Origin: Selenomonas bovis DSM 23594
GTDB taxonomy: Bacteria > Bacillota > Negativicutes > Selenomonadales > Selenomonadaceae
Direction of reading: 5' to 3'
NCBI RefSeq assembly: GCF_000381005.1
Contig: NZ_KB908381.1
Span: 62,001 to 126,000 of the forward strand
Length of the DNA stretch: 64,000 bases
Under the pieces are notes generated by a model. That model saw only the letters and a list, made by a program, of their open reading frames with translations, had not been told where the DNA came from and made no database searches. Position 1 is the first letter of the stretch. Every line of letters starts with the position of its first letter. Shown here one piece after another: positions 3,270 to 9,357 of the stretch. The position numbers were made by a program, and so were the translations under genes.

Positions 3270-5765
3270 TTATTCTACACCGCGGAAATAGTGGCCGCGT
3301 GTGATATTTTCTCCTTCGAGCCGGGCGATTCTCTCAGCCTGATCCTCGTGCTCCTGCTCCTTCATCGCGAGAACGCTGCGGTACGCGGCAACCGTTTGGG
3401 CGATTTCCTCCGCCGCCATGCTCTTGCCCTCGATGCGGATCCGCGCGATGCCGACGGGCCCGAAAGCCGCGGCATGCGGCAGCATGGAAAGCGGACGGCT
3501 GTTGAGGACATGCATGTGGCAGAACTGATCGGTAACGAGCGGGAAGAGAACATCCTTCCTATCCTTGAGGAAATATCTGCCCTTGACGCACGGCATCGAG
3601 CAGGCCTTTTCACCGCAATCACCGAGGAAGCTTCCCAGCGCGCAATACTCAGATACCATGAGTTCCAACGGCCCATGCACGATACACTCAAGCGGCAAAG
3701 GCGCAGTCGCCGCTAGGTGCTTGACCTGCTGCCATGTCAGCTCCGGGGAGAGCGTCGCACTCGCCACCCCGTGCGCGGCGAGGAATGCCAGCGTCTCGTG
3801 ATTGTAGGCGATCAGTGAGGCATCCGTATGCAGCGGGATCTCAGTCCGCGTCTGCGCAATCTCCAGTGTGCCGATGTTCTGGACATAGAGCTCATCCGGC
3901 GGGATTTCCCGGAACACATCGAAGAGCTCCAGCATTTCCTTGAGATGGCATTCACGGACAATCCTCGGCGTATTGAAATAGAGATTCTTCCGCTGTGCCT
4001 CCGCCAGTTCCCAGACGGCTTCGTACTCACTGCCAGCAATCTGCCTGTGCTGATACGAATCGCCGCCGAAGAGCACGCCATCCGCACCGGCCTCATAAGC
4101 AGCCTTTGCCTTCTCCAATGTATCAACCGATACGACGAGCTCGCTGCACCGATAGGTTGCGTGTTTTGCTGCCTGTTGCGGCTGCTGCATCGAGGACGTG
4201 GCAAGCGGCGGGCGCGCGAATGTCTTGAGGCGCGCCTCCTCAAGGGATGCCACAGCCTGGCGGCGCGCCTCGTTGATCTCGCTCATCGGCACCATGACAT
4301 CCCCCGCAATCTGCACGTGAAAATCGCGCAACGCGAATACACTGGTGCCGAGACGCTCCACCTGCTTGCGGATCACCGCCTCCGTCAGCGGTCGTTTCTG
4401 CGCGGCGACGCCGATGAACGAGGTCGCCGCTGAGGAATGATGCCCATCCTCATCCGTCATGGCGAGCCGCAGCGGCTCGCCAACGGCAGCCGTGACGCGG
4501 ACGTCCACCGGGATGCGGCGCAGCGGCGCGCCGTGTGTGTAGAACGATTTCGCACGTTGCATGAGCGCCCCATCGTAGACCTTGAAGACACGATCGTGCT
4601 CATGGACAGGCGCGGACAGAGGGAAGGAGACTGTCATACCGGGCGTTGCTTCCGTCACGCTCCTGCCGGTTTCATCACGCAGCTCCTCAATCGTCGCTGT
4701 CACGCGTCCGCCGACCTTCACCCATACATCGATCTGATCGCCAACAGCGAGCCTGCCGGAAAGCCGCAGGTTGACCAATCGGCTCTCACGCGCGAAGCGC
4801 ACGACCCGGCCGATCAGCAGGCCGCGATTATTGGGACGGCGATCGCTCATCATGGCGCGCCCGGGGCGTCGCTCGAGATAGGCCGTCGTGAAATCGCGAT
4901 TGAAAATCTGGGCGAGCCGCTCCTTTTCCTCAGGGAGTGCCTGATAATTGCTCCCTTGCTGCTTCATGCAGCGATCGAGTGCCTGCCGATACGTTTGAAC
5001 GACCGTGGCGACATACTCCGGACGTTTCATGCGGCCCTCGATTTTCAACGAAGCAATGCCAGTCGCGAGGAGCTCGGGCAGAATCTCAAGCGTGTTCATA
5101 TCCTTGGGAGAGAGCAGATATTTGCCCGCCGAAGCGCCGAGGACATCCTCTCCCGCCGCGTCTACAAGCGTATACGGCAGCCGACAGGGCTGCGCGCAGC
5201 GCCCGCGATTACCGCTGCGCCCCCCGATCATGCTGCTCATGAGGCATTGTCCGGAATAGCAGACACAGAGCGCGCCATGCACGAACGCCTCGATCTCGAG
5301 CGGCGTATGTGCGGCGATATAGCGGATCTCGGCTAGAGAAAGCTCCCGCGAGAGGACGACGCGCGTGAAACCAAGACGTTCCATGGCCTGCACACCAGCC
5401 AGATTGTGGATGGTCATCTGCGTGCTCGCATGTAGAGGCAGCCGCGGCACAATCTCTCTTGCCAGTGCCGCCACGCCCAGATCCTGCACGAGCACCGCAT
5501 CCACACCCGCATCGTACAGGAAACGAAGATACGCCGCCACTGCCGGCAGCTCCGCATCCGACACGATCGTATTCACCGTCACATGGACACGCACCCCGCG
5601 CAAGTGGGCAAACCGGACAGCCCACCGCATGGTCTCCTCATCAAAATTATCCGCATAGGCGCGCGCACCGAAATGGCTGCCCGCCAGATACACCGCATCC
5701 GCGCCAGCCTCCACGGCGGCGATGAATGCCTCTTTGCTCCCGGCGGGAGCAAGCAATTCTACCAA
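3270..5765 (-). CDS. U32 family protein, RlhA-like (tandem U32 domains)
   Basis: This 831-residue protein was formerly classed as peptidase U32. Relatives such as E. coli RlhA hydroxylate C2501 of 23S rRNA and use an iron-sulfur centre plus prephenate. The N-terminal domain begins LLAPAGSKEAFIAAVEAGAD and carries the U32 signature near residues 165-195 (HGALCVCYSGQCLMSS, then GNRGRCAQPCRLPY), with Cys residues suited to metal or Fe-S binding. A DUF3656-like middle follows. A second U32-like domain (about 545-800) has its own HGPLELMVSEYC and a Cys cluster (CGEKACSMPC). The start is TTG with AGGAGG 9 bases upstream; an ATG 7 bases further upstream is out of frame. Whether it modifies rRNA or is a protease is not shown by the sequence. 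Confidence 0.85.
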   Translation of the reverse strand: MVELLAPAGSKEAFIAAVEAGADAVYLAGSHFGARAYADNFDEETMRWAVRFAHLRGVRVHVTVNTIVSDAELPAVAAYLRFLYDAGVDAVLVQDLGVAALAREIVPRLPLHASTQMTIHNLAGVQAMERLGFTRVVLSRELSLAEIRYIAAHTPLEIEAFVHGALCVCYSGQCLMSSMIGGRSGNRGRCAQPCRLPYTLVDAAGEDVLGASAGKYLLSPKDMNTLEILPELLATGIASLKIEGRMKRPEYVATVVQTYRQALDRCMKQQGSNYQALPEEKERLAQIFNRDFTTAYLERRPGRAMMSDRRPNNRGLLIGRVVRFARESRLVNLRLSGRLAVGDQIDVWVKVGGRVTATIEELRDETGRSVTEATPGMTVSFPLSAPVHEHDRVFKVYDGALMQRAKSFYTHGAPLRRIPVDVRVTAAVGEPLRLAMTDEDGHHSSAATSFIGVAAQKRPLTEAVIRKQVERLGTSVFALRDFHVQIAGDVMVPMSEINEARRQAVASLEEARLKTFARPPLATSSMQQPQQAAKHATYRCSELVVSVDTLEKAKAAYEAGADGVLFGGDSYQHRQIAGSEYEAVWELAEAQRKNLYFNTPRIVRECHLKEMLELFDVFREIPPDELYVQNIGTLEIAQTRTEIPLHTDASLIAYNHETLAFLAAHGVASATLSPELTWQQVKHLAATAPLPLECIVHGPLELMVSEYCALGSFLGDCGEKACSMPCVKGRYFLKDRKDVLFPLVTDQFCHMHVLNSRPLSMLPHAAAFGPVGIARIRIEGKSMAAEEIAQTVAAYRSVLAMKEQEHEDQAERIARLEGENITRGHYFRGVE

Positions 5766-5784
5766 ACTTCATTTCCTCCTCATA

Positions 5785-5812
5785 TAAAAGCCGCCACATA
5801 TCTCGATATGGC
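5785..5812 (-). terminator. Terminator-like hairpin in front of the U32 start
   Basis: On the minus strand GCCATAT and ATATG(T)GGC form a short stem with one bulge, followed by GGCTTTTAT. It ends just before the AGGAGG of the U32 gene. It could end the upstream small RNA, or act as an attenuator or start-site hairpin for U32-mutS2. The stem is short and the U-run has only four bases. Confidence 0.4.
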
Positions 5813-5877
5813 AACGACAGTCCCTAGGACGCATGCTGATGACCGCAGCGATCATTTTAGAGCGTCATCATGCTTTC

Positions 5878-6053
5878 GGAATCACTGATTCATTCAGCAC
5901 TTCGTCTTCACACGTCTGCACTGTCTTCCATCGCCCTACAATCCTCAGCACAAAACGCAATGGAGCGTTTTGCCGCTACGCCTCTGGTTTATCTCCTAGG
6001 GAAATACAGCGCATCCGCGTAAATCCGGAGCACTTCATTGAATCAGCGATTCC
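5878..6053 (-). ncRNA. ssrS: Candidate 6S RNA (rod-shaped RNA)
   Basis: Read on the minus strand, this 176-nt stretch folds into a nearly continuous rod. The ends (6039-6053 with 5878-5892) form a 15-bp helix with a single G-U pair. Then 6016-6023 pairs with 5907-5914 (8 bp, two G-U). Next 6000-6012 pairs with 5918-5929 (about 12 bp, one mismatch). A large open bubble follows (5978-5999 opposite 5930-5946). A terminal hairpin (5947-5977) has an 8-bp CAAAACGC/GCGTTTTG stem. Closing helix, interrupted helices, central bubble and terminal stem-loop are the architecture of 6S RNA, which mimics an open promoter and sequesters housekeeping RNA polymerase. The bubble's CCCUAGGAGAUAA side resembles the E. 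coli 6S bubble strand as I remember it. I see no open reading frame here with a ribosome binding site. A covariance search was not possible. Confidence 0.55.
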
Positions 6054-6104
6054 TTTCAGCTATTTCTGCGCGAACACAACAGCCGCGCCTCTTTTCTTCA
6101 AGCC

Positions 6105-6133
6105 ATTATACAGGAAATATAAAAAACTTTCCA
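6105..6133 (-). promoter_or_regulatory. Promoter upstream of the 6S RNA candidate
   Basis: On the minus strand TGGAAA (6128-6133) and TATAAT (6105-6110) are spaced by 17 bases. Transcription would begin near 6098, about 45 bases before the rod. That interval contains a small GCGCG/CGCGC hairpin that may be removed by processing. U32-mutS2 could be read from the same promoter if transcription passes the RNA. Confidence 0.6.
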
Positions 6134-6158
6134 CAAAAAGCGTATGCGTTCAGGGATG

Positions 6159-6200
6159 CGCTGCGCCTGCGGCTTGCGCTCTTGGGGATTTACATAGTAA
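6159..6200. repeat. Dispersed 42-bp repeat, copy 1
   Basis: Plus-strand sequence beginning CGCTGCGCCTGCGGCTTGCG and ending in GGGGATTTACATA plus a few bases. A nearly identical copy lies at 9316-9357. Both copies sit directly downstream of a minus-strand terminator hairpin, in the same orientation to it, and upstream of the next minus-strand unit. No known element was recognised. Confidence 0.75.
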
Positions 6201-6233
6201 ACAGCCCTCTCTCCGAATCCGGAAAGAAGGCTG
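6193..6233 (-). terminator. Terminator of the lut operon
   Basis: On the minus strand CAGCCTTCTTTCCG and CGGAGAGAGGGCTG form a 14-bp stem (two G-U pairs) with a GATT loop, followed by TTTACTATG. It lies about 70 bases past the lutBA stop. Confidence 0.7.
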
Positions 6234-6302
6234 CTTCGATGGTGTCACGATGGGCTCATTCGAGATATCGCAGCCTAGCTGCATACTTCACTGTCCTTGT
6301 CA

Positions 6303-8471
6303 TCACGACTCAATATCTTCCGCAAGAATATCCGCGATATGGCGCACGCGAATCTCCGGTGCCTGCTGGTCGAGGCCGCCGCGCAGCTGCATCATGCAGG
6401 CCGGGCAAGCCACAGCTACGGTATCCGCGCCTGTCGCCTTGATGTTCTGGATCTTCTCCGTCAGCATCGGCAGGGAAATCTCGCTGTACTTGATGCCGAA
6501 CGCGCCTGCCATGCCGCAGCACTTATCAGGATTCTTCATCTCCACGAATGAAGTGCTCTTCGCCGTGGCCAGCAGCGCGCGTGGCTGTTCGAAGATGCCC
6601 AGACCCCGCTTCATGTGGCAAGAATCATGGTAGGTGGTTTTATGCGAACCATTCACATTCTGCAGGCGGCCCTGCTGCTCATATTTCTCTGCGACGAAGC
6701 TCGTGAACTCGCGCACCTTGCTCGCAAAGGCCTCCGCGCGTTTCTCCCAGACGGGATCTCCCCTGAAGAGCTCGCGATACGTATGAGAGAGCGTCTCCGC
6801 GCACGTCGGGCAGGCACTGATGATGACATCGGCCCCGCACGACTCGAATGCCTCGATGTTCTTCTTTGCGATCTTGCGCCCTGTATCGCGGTCGCCCATC
6901 CCCAGTACCGGCTTACCGCAGCAGCTCTGTTCCATCGGGAACAAGACCTCTGCGCCGAGATCCTGCAATACCTTGACCACAGAAACGGACGTACCCGGGA
7001 ACACGAAGTCGAGGTTGCAGCCAGAGAAGAACGCTACCTTCAAAGAACTCCGAGGATTCTTTTTCGCAAGCTCAGCATAGCGGTCACGGAACGGAACATC
7101 TGCGATGGCCGGCAGGCTGCGGCCTTTCGTCATACCCGCAAAGAAGAGCGGCAGATGACGGATGAAGCCTTTAGACGCCACTGGTTTCTGCGCGACAGAG
7201 CCCAAACGCAGAAGCGTATGGAAAATCTTGCGATTCGCGAGGATCTTCTGAAACGCAGCCCTCTCCGGCAGCGCCAATCCATGCTCTTTGACATACCGCG
7301 AACGCAGCTCATCAATGAGGTCCGGGATGGGAACCTTGCCTGGGCAGACAGTCGTGCAGCGGCGGCAACCGATGCAGAGATCGCTGAACTGGGAGAACGC
7401 GTCCATGTTATGCAGCAGACCGGTGAGGATCGCGCCGATACCGCCGGAGTAAATATGCCCATAGACGTGTCCGCCGACCAGTGTCCAGATCGGACAAACG
7501 TTTAGACAGGAGGCACAGCGTACGCACTGGTATACGGAATTCATTTTCTCATCATGCGCTGCGTCGAGGCGGCCGTTATCGAGCAGGATCACATATTGCT
7601 GGCGCTCTTCCTCGACCCATTTGCCATCTACCTTGTGGATGACGGGCGTCGGGCCGTCCACCATCGTCATATAGCTCGTCATGCGCTGGCAGGTGCCGTT
7701 GCGCGGCAGGAGACGCAGGATCTTCGCGGCATCCTCGACCTTCGGGATGAGCTTTTCATAGCCGATGAGCACGACATGGATCCTTGGCAGCGTCGTGACG
7801 AGGCGCGCATTGCCCTCATTCGTCACAAGGCCGATGGCACCATTCTCCGCAATGCCGAAATTCGCGCCCGTAATACCCATATCCGCCGAGAGAAACTCCT
7901 CACGCAGTACGCGACGCGCCGTCTGAATCATATAGGGAATATCCGGCGGCACCTCTTCCTTGAGCTCATGCGAGAAAAAGCCCGCGCACTGTTTCCTGTT
8001 CAGATGAATGGCCGGCATAACCATGTGCGACGGCTTCTGATCCGCCACCGCCAGCATCCACTCACCGAGGTCTGTCTCCCGGACATGCAGGCCGGCGTTT
8101 TCGAAGACCTCATTGAGATGAATCTCTTCAGACGCCATGGATTTCGACTTGACGATGCGCTTTACATTCTGCTCCTTGCAGATCTGCAGCAAATATTTCT
8201 TGACTTCATCTCCGTCCTTCGCACGGAAAAAATGACCGCCACGCGCCTTGATGGACGCCTCAAATTCATCTGCCACCTGTTCGATATGATGAACCGTCCA
8301 CTGTTTCATATCCCGCAAATCATCGCGCAGCCCCTCAATGCTGTCGACATTCGCATAGGAACGAAGGCGCGCCTCCGGATATTGGTCAGCAAAACGGCTC
8401 AAGGCATCCTGCAAGACCTCATCATGCAATTTCGTATCAATTTCTTTTTTCAGGTTACGCTGCTCAGCCAT
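6303..8471 (-). CDS. lutB: Fused lactate utilization protein LutB-LutA
   Basis: This 722-residue protein unites two subunits of the LutABC L-lactate oxidising complex. The N-terminal ~290 residues are a LUD domain. Two 4Fe-4S motifs follow (CVRCASCLNVCP and CIGCRRCTTVCP). The C-terminal ~230 residues are LutA-like, with two Cys-rich CCG domains (QSCCGKP with SACPTC; DKCCGMAG with ACPACM). LutB and LutA are separate genes in Bacillus subtilis, about 480 and 240 residues. The fused order B-A is unusual relative to that model. The ATG at 8471 has a G-rich Shine-Dalgarno and overlaps the lutC stop by 8 bases. The expected role is oxidation of L-lactate to pyruvate with electrons passing over Fe-S centres. 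Whether it runs in the oxidising direction in this fermenter is not visible. Confidence 0.88.
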   Translation of the reverse strand: MAEQRNLKKEIDTKLHDEVLQDALSRFADQYPEARLRSYANVDSIEGLRDDLRDMKQWTVHHIEQVADEFEASIKARGGHFFRAKDGDEVKKYLLQICKEQNVKRIVKSKSMASEEIHLNEVFENAGLHVRETDLGEWMLAVADQKPSHMVMPAIHLNRKQCAGFFSHELKEEVPPDIPYMIQTARRVLREEFLSADMGITGANFGIAENGAIGLVTNEGNARLVTTLPRIHVVLIGYEKLIPKVEDAAKILRLLPRNGTCQRMTSYMTMVDGPTPVIHKVDGKWVEEERQQYVILLDNGRLDAAHDEKMNSVYQCVRCASCLNVCPIWTLVGGHVYGHIYSGGIGAILTGLLHNMDAFSQFSDLCIGCRRCTTVCPGKVPIPDLIDELRSRYVKEHGLALPERAAFQKILANRKIFHTLLRLGSVAQKPVASKGFIRHLPLFFAGMTKGRSLPAIADVPFRDRYAELAKKNPRSSLKVAFFSGCNLDFVFPGTSVSVVKVLQDLGAEVLFPMEQSCCGKPVLGMGDRDTGRKIAKKNIEAFESCGADVIISACPTCAETLSHTYRELFRGDPVWEKRAEAFASKVREFTSFVAEKYEQQGRLQNVNGSHKTTYHDSCHMKRGLGIFEQPRALLATAKSTSFVEMKNPDKCCGMAGAFGIKYSEISLPMLTEKIQNIKATGADTVAVACPACMMQLRGGLDQQAPEIRVRHIADILAEDIES

Positions 8472-9084
8472 GAATGCTGCCCCCTTCCGCTCCGATGACA
8501 ACAATGAAGAACCTGCTCGGGCCATGAACACCGAGGCTCAGCACGCGTTCAATGTCAGCTGTGCGGCTCGGTCCCGTGATAAAGCCAAGATAGCCCTTCT
8601 GAAAGACACGGGACATCACTTGGAAGGCCGTCGTCACATTCTCTACCAAGGCATTGCGGTCGAGGAGAACGATATGTGCAGGCGGCAGCATGCCAACGAC
8701 ACGCGCCTCATAGGAGTACGTATCCACGCAGACGCTCCCCGTCTCCCCCACGCCGAACTCAGCTCTCGACAAGCCAAGGCCCGCCTGCGGGGCATGCTCT
8801 GCCACCTCGAACTTATCCCGAAAAACTTGCTTCCCCGCCTGTGCGAGTGTATCGCAGGCCAATGAGATCCCCCGATCTGTTTCTGTGCCCGCAGCGACAA
8901 CCATATCTGCCTTGACCTCATCGGCAATCTCCAAAACTTTTTGCGCGGCCGCAGTCTCATCTGGCACACAGAAAATCTCCGCAGAGGCAGCCTTTGCATT
9001 CTCTTCAAAATCTGGCCAATAGCTCCCATTGACCAACGCAGGGGAAAACGCCTCCGTTTTCCAGTCAGCACATACCTTCCTCAT
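8464..9084 (-). CDS. lutC: Lactate utilization protein C (LUD domain)
   Basis: A 206-residue LUD-domain protein, the third part of the LutABC complex. Recognisable features are GTETDRGISLACDTLAQAG in the middle, the AEFGVGETGSVCV segment and the C-terminal GPSRTADIE motif found in LutC/YkgG proteins. The ATG at 9084 was chosen because GAGGAG lies about 10 bases upstream; a GTG at 9093 would abut that site. It is the first gene of a two-gene operon with the LutB-LutA fusion. The two overlap by 8 bases, so translation is probably coupled. Confidence 0.88.
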   Translation of the reverse strand: MRKVCADWKTEAFSPALVNGSYWPDFEENAKAASAEIFCVPDETAAAQKVLEIADEVKADMVVAAGTETDRGISLACDTLAQAGKQVFRDKFEVAEHAPQAGLGLSRAEFGVGETGSVCVDTYSYEARVVGMLPPAHIVLLDRNALVENVTTAFQVMSRVFQKGYLGFITGPSRTADIERVLSLGVHGPSRFFIVVIGAEGGSIHG

Positions 9085-9350
9085 ACATTTCACTCTCCTC
9101 TTTCAAAAGGCGATTCTGAAATACAACATTATTATTTATCTCAGTATTATTCTTTTATTTCAGCTGTATTTCATTTATTTCTTATTATTCTGCTTAGTAA
9201 TGGGAAATTCCTGCTGGAAATGTAAAAAAAAAAAATATTTTCGTACAAAGCTACATGCACAAACGTCCACTTCGTGGACATTGTGCATCGCCCTTACAGT
9301 AAATCCAACCAATCACGCTGCGCCTGCGGCTTGCGTTCTTGGGGATTTAC
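9085..9350. other. Non-coding region upstream of lutC
   Basis: AT-rich from about 9110 to 9245, with a run of twelve A (T on the coding strand), then a strong hairpin (9255-9288) and repeat copy 2. The lut promoter should be here on the minus strand, but I could not place -35/-10 boxes with confidence. I see no gene. Confidence 0.6.
9255..9288. repeat. Inverted repeat / strong hairpin
   Basis: ATGCACAA pairs with TTGTGCAT (8 bp) and inside it GTCCAC pairs with GTGGAC (6 bp) around a TTC loop, with a small internal loop between. There is no U-run directly after it on either strand, so it is not an obvious terminator. It may be an operator or part of the lut leader. Confidence 0.6.
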
Positions 9351-9357
9351 ATAAGAA
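9316..9357. repeat. Dispersed 42-bp repeat, copy 2
   Basis: Second copy of the repeat at 6159-6200, same orientation, differing at a few positions (CTCTT to TTCTT, TAGTAA to TAAGAA). It begins at the U-tail of the cysE terminator. Confidence 0.75.

Follow-up and report, generated by a model that had tools for sequence, protein, structure and literature searches.

A rod-shaped fold between two genes

Which kind of sequence forms the long rod encoded upstream of a U32-family peptidase gene in Selenomonas bovis DSM 23594? The stretch concerned covers positions 5878-6053 of the window, the 64,000 nucleotides of DNA that were analyzed here. It lies between the U32-family peptidase gene downstream (3270-5765) and the gene for an LdhH-type L-lactate dehydrogenase (quinone) large subunit upstream (6303-8531), both encoded on the minus strand. 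The intergenic gap (5766-6302) is 537 bp long, in line with the more than 500 bp given in the initial annotation, which had read the minus strand of this stretch as a 6S RNA.

Folding of the minus strand resulted in an end-to-end rod of -83.7 kcal/mol, compared to a mean of -47.4 kcal/mol for 200 dinucleotide shuffles, none of which folded as well (0/200, z -9.17), confirming the end-to-end pairing that had been described. The plus strand folds more weakly (-54.3 kcal/mol, z -5.0). All parts reported earlier, from the 15-bp closing helix through the inner helices to the apical hairpin, are present in the predicted fold, except that a series of smaller internal loops takes the place of the large bubble. 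A preference for the minus strand had been deduced from G-U pairs. Strand-symmetric self-alignment of the window copy indeed gave 9 G-U versus 2 A-C positions on this strand, a small count when taken alone, and the asymmetry is also seen among its relatives (see below).

The 17-spaced promoter proposed upstream was found as a sigma-70-like consensus match (TGGAAA-17-TATAAT, minus strand, 6133-6105) which agrees with the consensus at 10 of 12 positions; one such promoter was detected compared to a shuffle mean of 0.5. A promoter at this position could, judged from the sequence, place the stretch in the leader of the U32 gene. Inside the stretch itself no promoter was seen by eye, and a scan of positions 5700-6400 detected none within 5878-6053. 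A terminator-like hairpin with a T-rich tail, likewise a consensus match, is located on the minus strand between the stretch and the U32 start (5790-5815); two terminator-like hairpins were found compared to a shuffle mean of 0.5. The gap also contains a second dispersed repeat of about 45 bases (6158-6202), with 14 additional occurrences within 724 kb of the same genome; one of these is at window positions 9316-9353, and several are in direct pairs about 107-115 bp apart.

A dispersed repeat with the features of a MITE

To judge from its sequence and surroundings, the stretch coincides exactly with a single copy of a dispersed repeat, a MITE, with a length of mostly 157-178 bp. This assignment rests on its dispersed occurrence, on 15-bp terminal inverted repeats and on a 4-bp target duplication. 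The end-repeat search located GGAATCACTGATTCA at 5878-5892 on the plus strand and GGAATCGCTGATTCA, read on the minus strand, at 6039-6053; directly beside the element ends the tetranucleotide TTTC is present on both sides (5874-5877 and 6054-6057). As is typical of a MITE, the element is short, multi-copy and without a transposase gene. With 176 bp the window copy belongs to a longer subclass (174-179 bp), and its minus strand is the one which adopts the conserved rod fold.

The S. bovis genome contains at least 43 DNA matches to the stretch, self included (40 of 132 candidates were scored). A search for the 15-bp end repeats, allowing up to two mismatches, gave 112 + 121 sites, and the reversed pattern used as a control gave 0. 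Altogether, the DNA examined from this genome yielded 54 elements or fragments, 29 of them within the 724 kb of contigs C1-C3, and identical 4-mers flank 33 of the 54. Target duplications were surveyed for 181 elements collected from loci (175 distinct), of which 179 could be scored: 118 have identical 4-mers on both sides and 61 do not. The duplicated 4-mers are TTAA in 50 cases, CTAA/TTAG in 22, TAAA/TTTA in 13 and others in 33.

Past mobility is supported by two loci. In genome G025, an IS5-type insertion sequence is broken, and a copy with TTCA on both sides lies between its left part and its right end. In G035, a copy is present that is missing from the same locus in the close relative G079, the flanks being 96-97% identical; since the remaining spacer in G079 differs, this pair shows presence and absence of the element, not a clean empty site. 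A blastn search of plasmids and phages with one element gave no match.

A covariance model built from related elements (R1, see below) was used with strict filters to determine the distribution. In the family it matched 81 of 151 genomes and 20 of 30 genera, in the phylum 19 of 398 genomes and 14 of 267 genera. The end-repeat pattern identified at least 115 stretches in genomes of named species, many of them Selenomonas and Centipeda; it was also found in Dialister, in Ruminococcus and, perhaps owing to misbinning, in MAGs of other phyla.

Insertion sequences with the same type of ends

Members of the IS5 group duplicate YTAR-type 4-mers. The transposase fragment from the G025 locus was used as a query and found matches in 12 of the 81 family genomes searched. 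Among the matches listed, at least three insertion sequences have ends of the element type and TTAA on both sides. The one in L189 (1085-2347) encodes an unbroken IS5-family transposase of 333 amino acids (NF033581, 318 bits), the one in L187 (1305-2539) contains a shorter open reading frame of 236 amino acids, and the ends of the one in L190 (1311-2538) are less alike. The element thus has its ends in common with autonomous elements of the IS5 family. This likeness is confined to about 15-25 bp at the ends and the interiors do not match, which rules out a simple deletion derivative of the insertion sequence.

In the S. bovis genome, the G025 fragment gave 0 matches, which counts against mobilization in trans there by a transposase with matching ends. 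A search of this genome for transposases with PF01609 gave two matches, and the pair of ends was seen around neither.

The fold evolves on a single strand

In bacteria, MITEs are generally considered to be passive DNA. Unusually, the fold of this element evolves like that of an RNA. An alignment (A2) was made from 43 chosen elements of 157-162 nt that represent five subfamilies (25, 12, 3, 2 and 1 members); the window copy, as a member of the longer subclass, is not part of it. Since MAFFT misaligned the apical part when many distant families were included, the counts are based on A2. Its rows were oriented by the better-folding strand, a choice which inflates G-U counts for single sequences and less so for aligned homologues.

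RNAalifold gave -75.06 for A2 with a covariation term of -9.09. Of the cells, 95.8% are paired, compared to 83.0% in shuffled alignments and 35-49% with slid partners. Two-sided changes occur in 31 of 54 pairs (shuffles: 23.3; 1 of 500 shuffles as high), and the covariation score is 0.440 compared to 0.203 for shuffled data. Covariation in the helices of relatives, which had been proposed earlier as a check, is therefore present beyond both the shuffled and the slid controls. On the strand used for orientation the cells comprise 281 G-U, 18 A-C, 1933 Watson-Crick and 80 other combinations, and counting only pairs with the respective class in two or more rows, 21 G-U pairs face 2 A-C pairs. The internal loops conserve their letters, including tandem G-A positions of the AGAUU/AAGAU type.

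For the window copy, model R1, built from A2, reaches 125.1 bits on the minus strand and 29.7 bits on the plus strand. It also matches divergent families that are absent from A2, many of them far better on one strand (for instance L112 with 98.5 versus 34.9 bits); for L108, L062 and L137 the scores of both strands are nearly equal.

A homologous core behind different ends

Twenty sites of R1 matches were examined, and several have quite different inverted ends. A sister element with ends of the GAAACTGTTCC type and a homologous core is present in L066 (6032-6191) and L091 (3771-3937); in L066 it adjoins an element with GGAACC ends. When the ends were removed, 14 of 22 cores matched cores of the GGAA family at E values up to 1e-3, compared to 0 of 440 shuffles, and the other 8 cores gave no match at E 1e-3. 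Thirteen of the 14 match in the same orientation; the remaining one, L254, matches in the opposite orientation and was left out of the supporting evidence. Of the 13, L066, L091, L251/L252, L253 and L248 have other ends; in further cores conserved ends are short or lacking, and L261 may have arisen by decay of a GGAA-type copy. For L255/L256, which have TAGGGCGTGTC ends, the match to the core comes from the covariance model alone. A second model (R2), built from five cores of distant genomes, found matches in 15 of 25 sources, elements of the S. bovis genome included (L220, 42.5 bits), and no match in the other 10, the window copy among them. Taken together, the homologous core is found behind the GGAA-type ends, the GAAACTGTTCC ends and at least three further sets of ends, and elsewhere without conserved ends.

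The genomic contexts of the core were noticed after the fact. In genomes G177 and G223, it is located on the sense strand within tRNA clusters and upstream of the 16S rRNA, the latter twice in G177 (L242:407-544, L244:291-419, L260:464-610). In L243, it lies between open reading frames that were read by eye as atp genes, and other distant matches are antisense by eye (L245, L259). A core without recognisable ends is found in sense orientation in L261 (435-544), between open reading frames read by eye as the ribosomal proteins L29 and S17.

A possible, still tentative explanation for these matches is that the rod is a selfish RNA module which is carried by transposons with quite different ends and which might act on the transcription or processing of its carrier or recruit a host factor common to unrelated transposases. 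If the core is truly common to MITEs with unrelated ends, one RNA module would serve several transposase systems, and its host partner could be sought.

Probable selection on the fold during spread

To determine the level at which the fold is selected, distinct changes away from Watson-Crick pairs were counted in 104 copies from three sets. Changes private to one copy comprise 28 G-U, 36 A-C and 32 other mismatches, changes common to two copies 8, 6 and 8, and changes common to three or more copies 15, 3 and 18, respectively. In a comparison of G-U with A-C, the private changes differ from those common to at least three copies (Fisher p 0.003); when A-C is pooled with the other mismatches, the same contrast is not significant (p 0.21). 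The 160-bp class of the S. bovis genome alone shows no contrast, its shared changes being 11 G-U versus 9 A-C cells.

The orientation of the elements was counted in tandem gene pairs, genes being longest-ORF calls rather than annotation. Sense and antisense copies number 9 and 14 in the S. bovis genome and 29 and 23 at other loci, showing no orientation bias. The count for S. bovis started from 45 rows (3 far and 5 edge rows dropped, 2 overlapping a long ORF kept), the one for other loci (L059 and above, nearly all contigs of named genomes) 122 rows (9 far and 19 edge rows dropped, 18 of the 122 overlapping a long ORF kept); for the latter, 9 of 131 elements had been excluded beforehand on account of their length or a fold difference under 5 kcal/mol. 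Nor is there a bias to the G-rich strand, which is the one that folds in 10 of 23 cases on contigs C1-C3. Given the unbiased orientation and copy-private mutations that do not favor pairing, the fold seems to be important during the spread of the element rather than for each of its resident copies or for a host gene, as far as these small numbers go.

We therefore favor, with a probability of roughly three in four, the reading that the stretch is an inserted copy of a non-autonomous MITE with IS5-type ends whose one-strand fold is needed for its spread. An IS5-family transposase supplied in trans would move the element. The fold of one strand would be required during this process, as suggested by shared changes that favor pairing, private changes that do not, and copies that lie in either gene orientation. 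Changes that spread keep an RNA-type fold and private mutations look unconstrained, which points to a role of the folded strand in mobility itself and is relevant to the question of why certain jumping elements contain a structured RNA.

The folded strand might instead act as a single-stranded DNA hairpin in transposition or replication. That selection appears tied to spread, that orientation is unbiased with respect to transcription and that no promoter was detected within 5878-6053 are all compatible with this alternative, and G-T and tandem G-A pairs form in DNA too. G-U pairs are, however, favored more in RNA, IS5-type transposases are DDE enzymes which are expected to use double-stranded ends, and the folding strand has no bias to the G-rich strand. 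We consider a DNA hairpin unlikely, though it is the strongest competitor, and an RNA the more likely form of the folded strand.

Less probable still is an ordinary MITE in which the rod is a by-product of a long inverted repeat in duplex DNA and neither strand is selected. The lack of orientation bias to genes or to the G-rich strand and the lack of a preference for pairing among private mutations would fit this explanation. A palindrome in duplex DNA has no reason to prefer a strand, so that the excess of G-U over A-C in both cells and pairs of A2 argues against it, as do the conserved letters of the internal loops and the homologous core behind other ends.

The copy upstream of the U32 gene

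At the window locus, the copy would probably be passive in the leader of the U32 gene transcript. Adoption by the host as a regulatory leader of this gene is suggested by the sense orientation of the element and by the consensus matches for the upstream promoter and for the terminator-like hairpin between element and gene. U32 loci were fetched from six other genomes of the genus, and five of the six are without the element, among them G005, where the U32 protein is 77% identical and the adjoining gene differs. In G002, an element is located upstream of U32 in the opposite orientation (L178:4273-4433); with this orientation and its own duplication, CAAG, it looks like an independent insertion. 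A host-adopted U32 leader is thus not supported and is very improbable.

The 6S RNA assignment

The RNA-like rod of the minus strand withstood the analysis, being borne out by the covariation and the G-U/A-C asymmetry among relatives; its identification as 6S RNA did not. A search of positions 5700-6350 with the Rfam 6S model (RF00013), the comparison that had been suggested for this assignment, gave no match at E values up to 10, and none was found in the window at the gathering threshold. A clear 6S match elsewhere in the genome had been named as evidence against the assignment, and the single RF00013 match of the genome is indeed located on contig C11 (72349-72529, corresponding to L031:1501-1681) with 56.7 bits compared to a cut-off of 46.4. 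An isolated end repeat of the element is located about 600 bases from this match.

6S RNA is encoded by one or few gene copies and is not a dispersed repeat, and it contains a large central bubble that imitates an open promoter. The stretch, with its inverted ends, its target duplication and 43 DNA matches in the genome, is a dispersed repeat, and the covarying structure common to 43 relatives shows small internal loops in place of a large open bubble. In spite of the rod shape, a length near 180 nt and the promoter consensus upstream, we give practically no credence to the idea that the stretch traps RNA polymerase as a 6S RNA or as a paralogue of it. The case cautions that the copy number of rod-shaped intergenic RNAs needs to be checked before they are labeled as 6S.

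Comparison with known families and elements

In 17 relatives, the elements are not covered by any Rfam family at the gathering threshold, and neither these relatives nor the window gave a group I intron match at this threshold. In 18 further loci searched at E values up to 1, the only match to a core was a sub-threshold one to a microRNA family (L254, 22.1 versus 66.7 bits). Group II intron matches are located near an element in Dialister succinatiphilus (L106:3558-3861). The literature searched contained no paper recognised as describing this element, and a text search with the end sequence gave unrelated titles only.

The element and 6S RNA are both long rods that differ in RF00013 match, copy number and bubble. 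With IS5-family insertion sequences and their MITEs, the element has in common the 15-bp ends, a 4-bp duplication of the YTAR type and the insertion sequences found with ends of the same type; it differs from IS5-family insertion sequences in its interior, which is a conserved structured core.

The nearest description in print that we found, in the parts of the source that were available, is that of candidates for mobile or repeat sequences such as MRSC-65-2 (PMC11109978). These candidates are portrayed there as single long stems with strong covariation, often present in dozens of copies per genome and sometimes near a transposase gene; whether they function as RNA or DNA is left open, and inconsistent orientation is taken as a sign of mobility (PMC11109978). 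A long covarying stem and multiple copies are found in both MRSC-65-2 and our element. Compared via the UYCCGG repeat described for the former (PMC11109978), the two do not agree, the repeat being present in 0 of 42 subfamily consensuses of the element on either strand.

The repeats bcr1-bcr18 of the Bacillus cereus group are, in the portions available of two reports, described as MITE-like intergenic repeats, many of which lie inside transcripts and some of which are predicted functional RNAs (PMC3446304, PMC6542083). They are likened to the element by description only and differ from it in their hosts and in a mobility linked to a TTTAT motif (PMC3446304, PMC6542083). IStrons, according to the available part of their description, consist of a group I intron plus an insertion sequence and are DNA transposons that carry a structured RNA (PMC4227781). 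Both IStrons and the element are transposable DNA with a structured RNA, a probable one in the case of the element; the RNA of the IStron is a splicing intron (PMC4227781).
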